Positions 11,508 to 18,459 of a stretch of 20,896 bases of DNA are shown here, in pieces. Under the pieces are notes generated by a model. It was not told the origin of the DNA, made no database searches, and saw nothing but the letters and a program-made list of their open reading frames with translations. A program made the position numbers and the translations under genes. How positions within the stretch are numbered: position 1 is the stretch's first letter; the number at the start of each line of letters is the position of its first letter. Source of the stretch: Acidithiobacillus sulfuriphilus (GTDB lineage Bacteria; Pseudomonadota; Gammaproteobacteria; Acidithiobacillales; Acidithiobacillaceae); contig NZ_RIZI01000146.1 of the NCBI RefSeq assembly GCF_003721225.1, positions 1 through 20,896 of the forward strand, read 5' to 3'.

Positions 11508-12431
11508 ATGTCCATGGCAGATCGCGACGGTTATATCTGGTTTGACGGGCAACTCGTCCCCTGGCGGGAAGCCACGGTACACGGACTCACCCACAGCCTC
11601 CACTACGGTATGGGGGCCTTTGAGGGCGAACGCGCCTATGCCACCCCCCGCGGGGCCGCCATCTTCCGCCTCACCGAACACACCCGGCGTCTCTTCAACA
11701 GCGCCAAGATCCTGCAGATGGACATGCCCTACACGGAAGCGGAGATCAATGCCGCCACCAAGAAAGTGATCCGCGCCAATCAACTCCAGTCCGCCTATAT
11801 CCGCCCTCTCCTCTTCTACGGCGCGGAAGGCATGGGCCTGTCCGCCAAAGGCCTCAAGGTCCACGTCCTCATCGCCGCCTGGACCTGGGGCAGCTATCTC
11901 GGCCAGGAAGCCCTGGAGCGCGGCATCCGCGTCAAGGTCAGTTCCTACAGCCGTCATCATGTCAACATCCATCTGTGCAAGGCCAAGGCCACGGGCAACT
12001 ACATGAACTCCATGCTAGCCCAGCGCGAGGCCGCCCATGGCGGCTATGACGAAGCCCTGCTACTCGACCGCGAAGGCTATGTGGCCGAAGGCTCCGGTGA
12101 AAACGTCTTCATGGTGCGCAACGGCACCCTCTACACCCCCACCCTCACCTCCGCCCTGGAGGGCATCACCCGCGACACCATCCTCGGCTTCGCCCGGGAT
12201 GCCGGCATCCCGCTGGTGGAAAAGCAGCTCACCCGCGACGAGTTCTACATTGCCGACGAGGCCTTCTTCACCGGCACCGCCGCCGAAGTCACGCCCATCC
12301 GCGAACTGGACAACCGCAGCATCGGCAACGGCCGCCGCGGTCCCATCACCGAGGCTCTGCAAAGCCGCTACTTCGACACCGTCACCGGCCGCCGCGACGA
12401 CCATCCCGAGTGGCTGCACTACACGGATTAA
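11508..12431 (+). CDS. ilvE: Branched-chain amino acid aminotransferase
   Basis: A fold-type IV PLP enzyme of 307 aa catalysing the last step of Leu, Ile and Val synthesis with glutamate as amino donor. Features seen: THSLHYGMGAFEGERAY at about 28-44; the PLP Lys160 within LCKAKATGNY (156-165); EGSGENVFM at about 194-202; and LTSALEGITRDT with TGTAAEVTPI toward the C-terminus. AAGGAGA lies about 8 nt before the ATG at 11508; a second ATG two codons later is less well placed. The gene sits 12 bp after glnE and 7 bp before a zinc-finger gene, so the three form one operon. glnE-ilvE adjacency is common in proteobacteria and links nitrogen regulation with a glutamate-using transaminase. Confidence 0.95.
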   Translation: MSMADRDGYIWFDGQLVPWREATVHGLTHSLHYGMGAFEGERAYATPRGAAIFRLTEHTRRLFNSAKILQMDMPYTEAEINAATKKVIRANQLQSAYIRPLLFYGAEGMGLSAKGLKVHVLIAAWTWGSYLGQEALERGIRVKVSSYSRHHVNIHLCKAKATGNYMNSMLAQREAAHGGYDEALLLDREGYVAEGSGENVFMVRNGTLYTPTLTSALEGITRDTILGFARDAGIPLVEKQLTRDEFYIADEAFFTGTAAEVTPIRELDNRSIGNGRRGPITEALQSRYFDTVTGRRDDHPEWLHYTD

Positions 12432-12669: not shown

Positions 12670-12734
12670 GTAGGAGCGGCCCATGGCCGCGATCTTTTGC
12701 CGGTCGCGAGCATTTTGGTCGCGGCCATGGGCCG
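12670..12734. repeat. REP-like inverted pair (BIME-like), copy B
   Basis: 12670-12694 is identical over 25 bp to 1477-1501 and starts GTAG. A perfect 16-bp inverted repeat follows. CGGCCCATGGCCGCGA at 12677-12692 pairs with its complement at 12719-12734 across a 26-nt loop. The right arm lacks the GTAG head. The element lies in the 111-bp gap between the convergent zf-CHCC and dsbD genes and could act as a transcription end or barrier for both; that role is inferred. Confidence 0.72.
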
Positions 12735-14750: not shown

Positions 14751-15176
14751 CTATCCTTCGCTCACGGCAGCGGCCACCCAGGTCAGATAATCGGGAAGTC
14801 CGTCCATAACGGGCAAGGCGACGATCTCCGGCAGCGTGTACGAATGCAAGGCGCGCAGACGCTGCTCCAGTGCCGCATAAGCCCTTGCCGTGGTCTTGAT
14901 GAGCAGCGTGACCTCTTCGGTAATGTTCAACCGCCCTTCCCACCGGTAGATGGAAACACCCTTGGGCAATAGGTGGATACAGGCTGCGAGATGTTCGTCC
15001 ACAAGGATGCGGGCCACGCGCTCGGCCTCGTCCCGGCTGGGGAAGGTGGTCATAATTACGCAGATGGCGTCGGGCGTCGCGGTGGGGATCACAAAATTTG
15101 CTCCAGGCAAGGGAACTTCTGCAGGAGGATAGCCTCTAATCTGTTGCAAGCGACTTGAAGATGGTTGCGAGCGCAT
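14751..15176 (-). CDS. cutA: Divalent-ion tolerance / CutA1-like trimeric protein
   Basis: CutA is a small, very stable trimer of PII-like ferredoxin fold, linked in E. coli to copper tolerance though its exact role is unsettled. The conserved core is clear: VIMTTFPSRDEAERVARILV, LAACIHLLP, SIYRWEG, ITEEVTLLIKTT, LPEIVALPV and DYLTWV. The start is ambiguous. ATG 15174-15176 has a near-perfect AAAGGAGG and gives 141 aa with about 30 extra N-terminal residues. GTG 15090-15092 with GGAG 8 nt upstream gives 113 aa, the normal family length. A third in-frame ATG at 15317 has the same ribosome-binding site because the segment is duplicated. The strong site may be only the complement of a plus-strand RNA motif. 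dsbD follows 95 bp downstream. Confidence 0.88.
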   Translation of the reverse strand: MRSQPSSSRLQQIRGYPPAEVPLPGANFVIPTATPDAICVIMTTFPSRDEAERVARILVDEHLAACIHLLPKGVSIYRWEGRLNITEEVTLLIKTTARAYAALEQRLRALHSYTLPEIVALPVMDGLPDYLTWVAAAVSEG

Positions 15177-15233
15177 GTTTCTTTCCTCCTTTGGTGGTTT
15201 TGGGCGGCACCTTCCGGCGCCGCCCTTCTTTTT
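15146..15233 (+). ncRNA. Candidate small RNA, unit 1 of a tandem pair
   Basis: The unit has a possible 5' stem (GCAA 15146-15149 with TTGC 15165-15168), then a CU-rich tract (15178-15192) containing CCTCCTTT, then an intrinsic terminator. 31 bases (15163-15193) are identical to unit 2 at 15304-15334. The -10-like TAATCT at 15137-15142 aligns with that of unit 2, but no -35 is recognisable, so expression is less certain than for unit 2. The unit is antisense to the strong ribosome-binding site and ATG of cutA. No protein-coding reading is convincing. The call rests on structure and duplication, not on a known family match. Confidence 0.45.
15202..15233 (+). terminator. Intrinsic terminator of unit 1
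   Basis: GGGCGGC (15202-15208) pairs with GCCGCCC (15219-15225) across a 10-nt loop, followed by TTCTTTTT. The U-tract is on the plus strand, although the nearest gene upstream on that strand is several kilobases away (the zf-CHCC gene), so it terminates a short local transcript. Confidence 0.75.
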
Positions 15234-15255
15234 CCGACCGGTCAGAATGTTTCTA

Positions 15256-15284
15256 TTGTCATCTTGTTGGACTTTTGCTAATAT
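15256..15284 (+). promoter_or_regulatory. Sigma70-type promoter for unit 2
   Basis: TTGTCA (15256-15261) and TAATAT (15279-15284) are separated by exactly 17 bp. The predicted start, about 7 nt downstream, is near 15291, which is the first base of the 5' hairpin of unit 2. The surrounding sequence is clearly more AT-rich than the neighbouring genes. Confidence 0.55.
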
Positions 15285-15290
15285 TGCCTT

Positions 15291-15367
15291 GCAGCCAAGT
15301 ATGGGTTGCGAGCGCATGTTTCTTTCCTCCTTTGTGGTTTTAGGGGCGACTTGGTCGCCCCTTTTTT
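15291..15367 (+). ncRNA. Candidate small RNA, unit 2 of a tandem pair
   Basis: A predicted transcript of about 76 nt. The 5' hairpin is GCAGCC (15291-15296), a 7-nt loop, and GGTTGC (15304-15309). A likely single-stranded CU-rich tract (15319-15333) contains CCTCCTTT, and a strong terminator follows. CCUCCUUU matches the usual 3' tail of 16S rRNA, so the RNA could pair with AAAGGAGG Shine-Dalgarno sequences. A well-spaced promoter lies upstream. Tandem sibling small RNAs with anti-Shine-Dalgarno loops are known in other proteobacteria, such as the NmsR pair in Neisseria; homology to them is not claimed. It could also be a prematurely terminated leader of the hydrolase gene that begins 18 bp after the terminator. 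Confidence 0.55.
15343..15367 (+). terminator. Intrinsic terminator of unit 2
   Basis: GGGGCGAC (15343-15350), a TTG loop, and GTCGCCCC (15354-15361) are followed by six T. Compared with unit 1, the stem pair G-C has become A-T on both arms (GGGCGGC/GCCGCCC against GGGCGAC/GTCGCCC). That is a compensatory change supporting a functional RNA stem. Confidence 0.85.
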
Positions 15368-15384
15368 AAAGCAGAGGCGCACCC

Positions 15385-16185
15385 TTGTCCAACCGCCCCT
15401 TCCCTGCCGCCGAACGTCCCTTCACTCTCGTCCACCGCAACGGTGAACGATTGTGCGGGATGATCCAGGATCGCCATGGGGGCCCGGTAGGCATCTACCT
15501 GCCCGGATTTGCTTCCACCATGGACGGCAACAAATCCCTCTTGCTGGCCCAAAATGCCCAGGAGCAGGGTTGGTCCTGGGTCCGTTTTGACCCACGGGGC
15601 GTCGGCCGCTCCGACGGCCTTTTCCAGGCGCTGACCGTCAGCCACTACCTCGCCGACCTGCAGCTCATCCTGGGCATGCTGGAGCAGCGGACCGTCGTGC
15701 TGGTGGGTTCCAGCATGGGTGGCTGGCTGGCCGTCATTGCCGCCGGCCGCTGGCCAGCGCGCATGGCCGGGCTGCTCCTGATCGCCCCCGCCTTCAACTT
15801 CATCCAGCAGATCTACGGCGGCCTGTCCATCACCGAGCAGCGACAGTGGCGGGAAACCGGCCTACGCCGCTGGCAAGATCCCTATGGCCTGGGCGAGATT
15901 GCCATGCAGTATGATCTGGTGGCCGATAGCTGGCGCTATGACCTCCTCCGCTTCCCGCCGCGCCTATCCTGCCCGGTGGAGATCCTGCATGGCAGCGCCG
16001 ATGAGGCGGTACCCCTGCGGCAAAGTTATCAATTTGCCGCCGTCGCCCAAGCGCCGCTCCTCAGCGTGCGCCCCCTCATCGGCGCCGAGCACCGTCTCCA
16101 GGGTGCCGATGCGGTGCTGCTGCGCAGTCTGCAGGGTCTCTGGTCCCATGCCGCCGTAGAAGACCTCCCGGGTATTCAGCCCTAG
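15385..16185 (+). CDS. Alpha/beta hydrolase family protein
   Basis: A 266-aa serine hydrolase of the alpha/beta fold, similar in style to ABHD10-like esterases/thioesterases. Motifs seen: YLPGFASTMDGNK (38-50) for the oxyanion region; FDPRGVGRSDG (68-78); the nucleophile elbow GSSMGG with Ser110; Asp206 in HGSADEAVP; and His236 in GAEHRL. The triad is therefore complete. The substrate is unknown. No signal peptide is seen, so it is cytoplasmic. The best start is TTG 15385-15387 with AGAGG 7 nt upstream. It lies only 18 bp after the unit 2 terminator, so expression probably depends on read-through of that terminator or on a promoter not seen. The following groES promoter is independent. Confidence 0.87.
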   Translation: MSNRPFPAAERPFTLVHRNGERLCGMIQDRHGGPVGIYLPGFASTMDGNKSLLLAQNAQEQGWSWVRFDPRGVGRSDGLFQALTVSHYLADLQLILGMLEQRTVVLVGSSMGGWLAVIAAGRWPARMAGLLLIAPAFNFIQQIYGGLSITEQRQWRETGLRRWQDPYGLGEIAMQYDLVADSWRYDLLRFPPRLSCPVEILHGSADEAVPLRQSYQFAAVAQAPLLSVRPLIGAEHRLQGADAVLLRSLQGLWSHAAVEDLPGIQP

Positions 16186-16658: not shown

Positions 16659-18380
<1,722 letters not shown>

Positions 18381-18425
18381 GCCGCCCCCTCGCCGGCAAG
18401 GCGGTGGTAAACCGCCTATCCAGCC

Positions 18426-18459
18426 AACCGGCCCCTGTATGGGGCCGGTTTTTTATTTT
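18426..18459 (+). terminator. Intrinsic terminator of the groESL operon
   Basis: AACCGGCCCC (18426-18435), loop TGTAT, and GGGGCCGGTT (18441-18450) form a perfect 10-bp stem followed by a T-rich tract (TTTTATTTT). It ends 45 bp after the groEL stop, so the downstream phosphoribosyltransferase needs its own promoter; none is obvious in 18460-18536. Confidence 0.93.

Follow-up and report, generated by a model that had tools for sequence, protein, structure and literature searches.

Tandem terminator-capped units with an anti-Shine-Dalgarno-like tract between cutA and a hydrolase gene in Acidithiobacillaceae: candidate sibling small RNAs with different promoters

Gene context and anatomy of the tandem units

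The window, the whole stretch of 20,896 nucleotides that was analyzed, belongs to a member of the Acidithiobacillaceae. According to Pfam, its gene order comprises glnE, a class IV aminotransferase gene (ilvE type), dsbD and cutA (both on the minus strand), the segment under study, an alpha/beta-hydrolase gene, and a groEL-type chaperonin gene. The segment, between cutA (14751 to 15092, minus strand; CutA1 domain) and the hydrolase gene (15385 to 16185, plus strand), holds two plus-strand units. The start of cutA was set by inspection, and the GTG at 15092 is proposed for it, so that the ribosome-binding site (RBS) of cutA itself would fall outside both units; the hydrolase gene starts with a TTG about 17 nt past the second terminator. 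The nearest plus-strand gene upstream is distant, as a preliminary description of this DNA had noted, but it ends at 12431, about 2.7 kb away rather than the 2.5 kb given there. A perfect 16-nt inverted repeat at 12677 to 12734, between the aminotransferase gene and dsbD, is possibly the REP element of that description. Right behind the groEL-type gene, positions 18378 to 18455 give a weak Rfam match to Hrs13 (20.6 bits against a cutoff of 52), which is probably that gene's terminator.

The tandem pair of terminator-capped units observed earlier was confirmed. Unit 1 is a putative small RNA (sRNA) of about 88 to 90 nt at 15145 to 15233 (plus strand), recognized by its fold and a covariance-model score of 79.8 bits, with its start placed from the −10 element and its end at the U-run. 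It consists of a 5' stem-loop (GCGACT/GGTTGC, 15150 to 15168) whose pairing holds over 36 units, a conserved tract, GAGCGCATGTTTCTTTCCTCCTTTG (15169 to 15193), with a mean identity of 1.00 (rounded) for 15170 to 15193 in 17 nonredundant genomes, and an intrinsic terminator (15202 to 15233) evident from folding and from the U-run in the sequence. The anti-Shine-Dalgarno (anti-SD)-like octamer CCTCCTTT occupies 15185 to 15192 (plus strand). Unit 2 is a putative sRNA of about 78 nt at 15290 to 15367 (plus strand; 77.4 bits), also with a predicted start. Its 5' stem-loop (GCAGCC/GGTTGC, 15291 to 15309) is seen in the fold and in the pairing across units, its conserved tract (15310 to 15334) in the fold and in the identity across genomes, and its intrinsic terminator (15342 to 15367), with a nine-pair stem, in a terminator scan as well as by folding. 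Here, CCTCCTTT (15326 to 15333, plus strand) is predicted to lie in a 16-nt loop closed by CGCA/TGTG.

The repeated layout of 5' hairpin, CU-rich tract, and terminator is thus present in both units, and the 31 identical bases that had been claimed for them were found at 15163 to 15193 and 15304 to 15334. Both terminators are seen by folding, the terminator scan listing that of unit 2 and missing that of unit 1. The compensatory base pair proposed between the two terminators did not survive, because their stems are different sequences and the comparison is therefore unsound. The fold of unit 2 has a z-score of −3.13, with none of 200 shuffles as good, and that of unit 1 a z-score of only −1.59, with 12 of 200 shuffles as good; the fold quality of unit 1 was dropped as evidence. 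A search for more copies in the same genome found the motif at these two places only, the next covariance-model match having 18.6 bits and an E value of 0.44.

Conservation among relatives

A BLASTN search with 15137 to 15370 matched 31 of 57 genomes: 25 of 29 from the family (that of the window included), both from the order's other family, and, of the 26 remaining genomes from the class, 4. Unit 1 is found in 25 of the 29 family genomes and unit 2 in 24 of those 25, a degree of conservation of the pair that exceeds chance. The four family genomes that BLASTN left unmatched, three of them 61 to 71% complete (G001, G017, and G019) and one 99% complete (G011), yielded no units with the covariance model either (best score, 18 bits). 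A further genome, G008, has kept unit 1 and lost unit 2. With G011 having neither unit and G008 no unit 2, the pair is not indispensable. In both genomes of the other family, the pair has the same position, flanked by dsbD-cutA on one side and the hydrolase gene on the other, and its two copies are almost identical, with 83 and 70 nt shared. Flank synteny was scanned in the window and in these two genomes; for the remainder of the family it was followed through the hydrolase motif only, which lies behind the units in 13 of the 25 genomes, G008 being one of them.

Mean identities, taken over 17 nonredundant genomes of the 25, are uneven along the segment. In unit 1, they are 1.00 for the −35 element, 0.57 for the spacer, 0.95 for the −10 element, 0.95 for the 5' hairpin, 1.00 for the tract, and 0.81 for the terminator; in unit 2, they are 0.91 for the extended −10 element, 0.69 for the hairpin, and 0.93 for the tract, values that are lowered by the inclusion of G008, which has no unit 2. 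The exact 24-nt tract occurs in nine named records, all Acidithiobacillus, one of them Igneacidithiobacillus. In the 23 other family genomes with two units, the tract of unit 1 is one T shorter and the longest run shared between the units is 11 to 22 nt, so the 31-nt identity is partly peculiar to the genome of the window. The additional T, at 15182 to 15185, sets this unit 1 apart from the other 24 of the family and makes its tract equal to that of unit 2; gene conversion and chance insertion are alternative origins.

The 5' stem covaries across genomes, which bears out the suggestion that it is kept as a structure. The stem alignment covered 36 of the 53 units, seven units 2 with a longer loop (L019 to L025) and 10 near-duplicates having been excluded beforehand. 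In it, 215 of 216 cells are paired and four of the six pairs are changed on both sides. Slid positions pair at 20 to 60%, and column shuffles give 97.0% paired cells and a mean of 1.9 both-side pairs, with 12 of 500 reaching four. The covariation is a real signal, although the compensatory cells behind it are few (seven). Among the seven longer-loop units, six fold with a 5' stem that closes on the same 3' arm, L022 being the exception.

Folding covered 52 of the 53 units (unit 2 of L014 was not caught by the pattern), and all 52 close with a stem and, after it, a T-rich run; the stem sequences differ. Hence, relatives do not keep the segment merely as a cutA RBS devoid of terminators and covariation, the outcome that the preliminary description had named as fatal to its reading. 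Unit 1 keeps CCTCC-TTT-GGTGG, which is able to partly close the anti-SD octamer, and unit 2 mostly keeps CCTCC-TTT-GTGG, with one base altered in 4 of 24 cases. The octamer is predicted to be unpaired with a mean of 0.65 over 25 units 1 and of 0.84 over 23 units 2, where it is displayed in a wide loop.

Promoter elements and the rpoE locus

Ahead of unit 1 lies a sigma-E-type promoter absent from the preliminary description, GGAACTT (15112 to 15118) and TCTAA (15135 to 15139) separated by 16 nt on the plus strand (15112 to 15139). This arrangement, GGAACTT-N16-TCTAA, is that of the Escherichia coli sigma-E consensus. The form GGAACTT-N16-TC(T/C)AA precedes unit 1 in all 25 family genomes that have it, and in the other family all four units have a TGAACTT or GGAAC −35 element, with up to two mismatches, and a TCNNA −10 element at the same spacing. 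In the genome of the window, GGAACTT-N15-17-TCTAA has one exact match, at unit 1, and the backwards control pattern also has one.

The same genome encodes an RpoE equivalog (330 bits against a cutoff of 236). Next to it is a protein with the N-terminal domain of RseA (RseA_N, 34 bits against a cutoff of 24), which falls under the NCBIfam cutoff for full-length RseA (27 of 263 bits), and this is followed by a gene for a Do-type protease, cut by the end of the locus, giving the order rpoE-rseA-degP. Three proteins of this genome match PF08281 over its cutoff; RpoE is the sole extracytoplasmic function (ECF) factor among them, and FliA and a NarL-type regulator account for the other two. Within the 3.1 kb around rpoE, no sigma-E-type promoter was found within one mismatch per hexamer, and the sigma-E consensus is therefore not calibrated in this genome. 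Both features by which a sigma-E-dependent sRNA was to be recognized, a sigma-E promoter and a genomic RpoE, are present, the promoter as judged by its consensus only. Together they suggest that unit 1 would depend on sigma-E.

Unit 2 has a promoter of the sigma-70 type at 15256 to 15284 (plus strand). The TTGTCA-N17-TAATAT arrangement reported for it is present, and it carries an extended TG besides, which gives the extended −10 element TGCTAATAT. Within 5 kb, 4 sigma-70-type sites were counted where 1.2 would be expected (two of them are registers of the unit 2 site), and the match taken alone is not beyond chance. In the family, TGCTAATAT is kept in 23 of the 24 units 2, and a −35 element within two mismatches of TTGACA at 16 to 18 nt is found in 20 of the 24.

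A palindrome, likewise absent from the preliminary description, TTCCGACCGGTCAGAA (common form in the family, TCCGACCGGTCGG), spans 15232 to 15247 between the units, with an identity of 0.93 at 15234 to 15247. The sequence TCCGACCGGTCGGA or a near form of it stands directly past terminator 1, ahead of the promoter that serves unit 2. Of the 29 family genomes, 11 contain an exact match to the 14-mer (A or T allowed at its ends), and in 9 of these it lies at the locus of the two units. In the remaining two, that of the window (L094) and G001 (L093), which belong to the same genus, it stands where an outer membrane efflux (OEP) gene has its promoter. Across the 29 genomes, the backwards control gives eight forward matches, spread over 7 of them, and at two mismatches the palindrome and its control tie at three in the genome of the window. 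Given these control matches, the palindromes at efflux genes may be due to chance, and only the clustering at the locus of the two units is beyond it. The palindrome fits an operator; alternatively, it may act as a hairpin in read-through transcripts. Assignment to the operator of a known regulator was rejected, no regulator having been found and the efflux places being possibly due to chance.

Shine-Dalgarno complementarity

The conserved tract contains GAGCGCATGTTTC(T)TTCCTCCTTTG, the complement of an SD sequence, a spacer, AUG, and CGC, and within it CCUCCUUU, which is presumably the tail of 16S rRNA. The proposal of tandem terminator-capped RNAs with an anti-SD-like CCUCCUUU tract is supported by conserved promoter elements over variable spacers, by the covarying stem, and by terminators on the plus strand.

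A search of the genome of the window and of the 29 family genomes with the whole SD-spacer-AUG complement revealed no trans target that was both near-perfect and conserved. With three mismatches, the genome of the window has two further places, one of them before a long open frame, against one for the backwards control; with two mismatches, the 29 family genomes have three further places, each in a different genome and ahead of a different frame, against no control matches. If the RNAs act in trans, they would then do so through shorter pairings, as do anti-SD RNAs elsewhere. The place before a long frame (G000:C106:19536-19554, near 1501 of L044; three mismatches) precedes a signal-peptide-like start, and that frame is a possible target. 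The hfq gene was found in 28 of the 29 family genomes, that of the window included, and both units may depend on Hfq.

Possible function and alternative explanations

What was computed here comprises two conserved units with promoter-like elements, terminators, and covariation in the 5' stem, together with SD complementarity and, in the genome, an RpoE locus and hfq. From these, we infer the transcription of the units, their dependence on sigma-E and Hfq, their pairing, their targets, and their purpose. The units are probably two trans-acting sibling sRNAs that block SD sites, one tied to envelope stress and the other to housekeeping transcription. Each would be transcribed from its own promoter and capped by its own intrinsic terminator, unit 1 upon the release of sigma-E (RpoE) by envelope stress and unit 2 from the sigma-70-type promoter, perhaps with modulation through the upstream palindrome. 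Both RNAs would expose the same tract, GCAUGUUUCU(U)UCCUCCUUUG, which would pair with the RBSs of target mRNAs, probably with Hfq, and block binding of the 30S subunit. With a sigma-E-type promoter on unit 1, a sigma-70-type promoter on unit 2, and the same tract in both, one translation-blocking payload would be wired to two signals. Precedents with a like anatomy, as far as the cited parts of their sources describe them, are NmsRA/B and the Burkholderia double-hairpin RNAs. A more far-reaching picture, which we regard as doubtful, is a conserved two-input brake on translation initiation in extreme acidophiles. A payload mimicking the 16S tail and covering the AUG would have been duplicated, with one copy under sigma-E for damage to the envelope and the other under sigma-70 and a palindromic operator that, in the genus of the window, is also found at an outer membrane efflux promoter, so that envelope and efflux state meet on one set of RBSs. 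Its odds are lowered because the palindrome away from the sRNA locus is no commoner than the control.

The proximity of the hydrolase gene raises the question of whether the units, and unit 2 in particular, act as transcription attenuators within its 5' leader, with terminator read-through setting hydrolase expression. The TTG at 15385 is close past terminator 2, the N-terminal motif of the hydrolase follows the core of unit 2 by 78 to 95 nt in 12 of the 24 two-unit family genomes (those where the pattern matched) and by 114 to 117 nt in both genomes of the other family, and the hydrolase mRNA probably begins in or before unit 2. Against this, unit 1, which has its own promoter and terminator, is followed by a further promoter and not by a gene of its own; G008 still has the hydrolase motif without unit 2; the likely gene behind a third copy (see below) is, by inspection, oriented the other way; and it is the SD-complementary tract that is most conserved, while the terminator stems drift more. 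Attenuation as the explanation of the units is thus unlikely, and attenuator and trans-acting roles could coexist. Also to be weighed is an sRNA pair of the ordinary kind without sigma-E input, the GGAACTT...TCTAA element being idle or bound by something else. This would agree with the single exact match in the genome, no more than for the backwards control, and with the absence of a match around rpoE itself. It leaves unaccounted for an invariant −35 element and a near-invariant −10 element that keep their exact spacing in all 25 family genomes with unit 1 while the spacer varies, as well as the (T/G)GAAC-type −35 elements (up to two mismatches) and TCNNA −10 elements at the same spacing in all four units of the other family, and we consider it quite improbable.

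The opposite strand offers a different explanation, namely, that the minus-strand AAAGGAGGAAAGAAACATG serves as the RBS for cutA or for a short leader peptide, with the appearance of plus-strand RNAs as a by-product. On the minus strand, both units have a strong SD followed by ATG CGC, and in the genome of the window both ATGs are in frame with cutA. A 12-codon frame starting MRSQ or MRLQ is found in 13 of the 25 family units 1 and in all four units of the other family, and a weak minus-strand match to RF03091 reflects the same RBS look. Yet the frame from unit 1 reaches cutA in 1 of the 25 family genomes, that of the window, and stops after 12 to 55 codons in the others; those from unit 2 range from 7 to 221 codons, and one-base changes in the loop shift the frame. 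In the cases inspected, the 12-codon frame meets its stop codon within the antisense of the −10 element. The U-runs of the terminators, the promoter elements, and the covariation of the stem all belong to the plus strand, and the third copy has no ATG at the corresponding place. With minus-strand frames that are not conserved into cutA, this explanation was mostly rejected and is very improbable.

Comparison with described RNAs

The sibling sRNAs favored here are of a known kind (NmsR, AbcR, CcsR, and double-hairpin RNAs); the family and its split sigma-E/sigma-70 wiring look new. Among the matches listed for the Acidithiobacillus literature, no paper dealt with RpoE-driven or anti-SD sRNAs as judged by its title and the start of its abstract. 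In E. coli, MicA and RybB are sRNAs made under sigma-E that cut the translation of envelope proteins; they are single genes with specific seeds and are not known as anti-SD siblings. If the proposal holds, bioleaching acidophiles would gain an envelope-stress RNA arm, and the pair, with the payload the same and the sigma factor different, would offer a natural setting in which to ask why sibling sRNAs are maintained in bacteria.

No Rfam family reaches its cutoff for either unit, and membership in a known family was rejected, all scores being below the gathering score. The highest-scoring shapes in an Rfam scan were SorY of Rhodobacter (RF02651; 25.1 and 23.1 bits, the gathering score being 111), which has a 5' stem, a CCUCCC tract, and a terminator in common with the units, and sbrA of Listeria (RF01489; 26.9 bits for unit 1 against 45), where the match is mainly to the terminator. 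The NmsRb model (RF02877) aligns end to end with unit 2 at 21.9 bits against a gathering score of 52, and unit 1 is not listed at an E value of ≤1. In Neisseria, NmsRA and NmsRB (NgncR_162/163, RcoF) are described, in the cited portion of the source, as siblings in tandem that have mapped starts, a putative promoter each, stem-loops, and UC-rich anti-SD tracts (PMC5362039). To that extent, the units share with the NmsRs the tandem arrangement and an anti-SD tract between 5' stem and terminator. They differ in the sigma-E-type promoter of unit 1, none being described for the NmsRs in that portion of PMC5362039.

Other anti-SD RNAs are less close in their organization. CcsR (cuckoo) RNAs and NfeR1 of alphaproteobacteria carry repeated anti-SD motifs in unpaired regions; CcsR1 to CcsR4 are clustered, have a role in stress defense, and are co-transcribed with ccaF1 from one RpoHI/RpoHII promoter and cleaved by RNase E, according to the cited parts of PMC10746234 and PMC10253847. 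Here, by comparison, promoter and terminator are separate for the two units, and no DUF1127 protein is among the eight window proteins scanned, unlike in the CcsR setting. The CCUCCUCCC motifs in unpaired hairpin regions by which those parts of the sources define cuckoo RNAs are not seen, the tract being CCUCCUUU, once per unit. With the model of the Betaproteobacteria toxic small RNA family (RF02278), for which the gathering score is 50, units 1 and 2 score 19.6 and 21.0 bits, and the match extends over the tract and terminator and not over the 5' stem. The likeness, as far as the source's cited part goes, lies in a CU-rich, RBS-complementary tract with hairpins. These Burkholderia double-hairpin RNAs occur in three to five copies per genome, and overexpressing one slows growth (PMC5688073, in the part cited).

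A covariance-model search of related genomes, as had been recommended, was carried out with a model (R1) that recovers all 53 units at a score of at least 65.7 bits, 36 of them by construction, R1 having been built from most of the units that it recovers. Its terminator brackets are one column off, so its scores lean on sequence and on the 5' stem. Among 369 genomes of the class, R1 has matches at an E value of ≤0.01 in 25, of which four are the sampled Acidithiobacillales, with tandem units at 77 to 88 bits, and 21 are others at 24 to 33 bits. Of 19 of these 21 loci tested against Rfam, 15 match RF02278 at 29 to 45 bits (cutoff of 50) and 4 do not match it at an E value of ≤0.1; RF02278 seems narrowly drawn. 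Most of the loci L053 to L073, in many genomes of the class, consist of CTCCTCCATCCTCCTTTGGTGGTTT or a near form with a terminator (e.g., L062:1501-1560).

Further copies were found in two Acidithiobacillales genomes, G030 (44.9 bits) and G029 (28.6 bits). By inspection, the third copy of G030, in the order's other family (L078:1501-1589, minus strand), has a transposase-like frame on one side and a convergent gene on the other. It does not contain the ATG complement and has no RF02278 match at an E value of ≤0.1, and its tract, CTTCCTCCTTTGGTGGTTTGGGCGCG, looks intermediate toward the RF02278-like RNAs. The chain from the family's own units through this third copy to the RF02278-like RNAs is suggestive of common descent, though not proof of it; weak as it is, it hints that several families of anti-SD RNAs may branch from one older group. 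Beside two of the RF02278-like RNAs, there are subthreshold matches to the glycine riboswitch, at 70 bits against a cutoff of 110 (L057:1705-1884 and L060:1194-1375).
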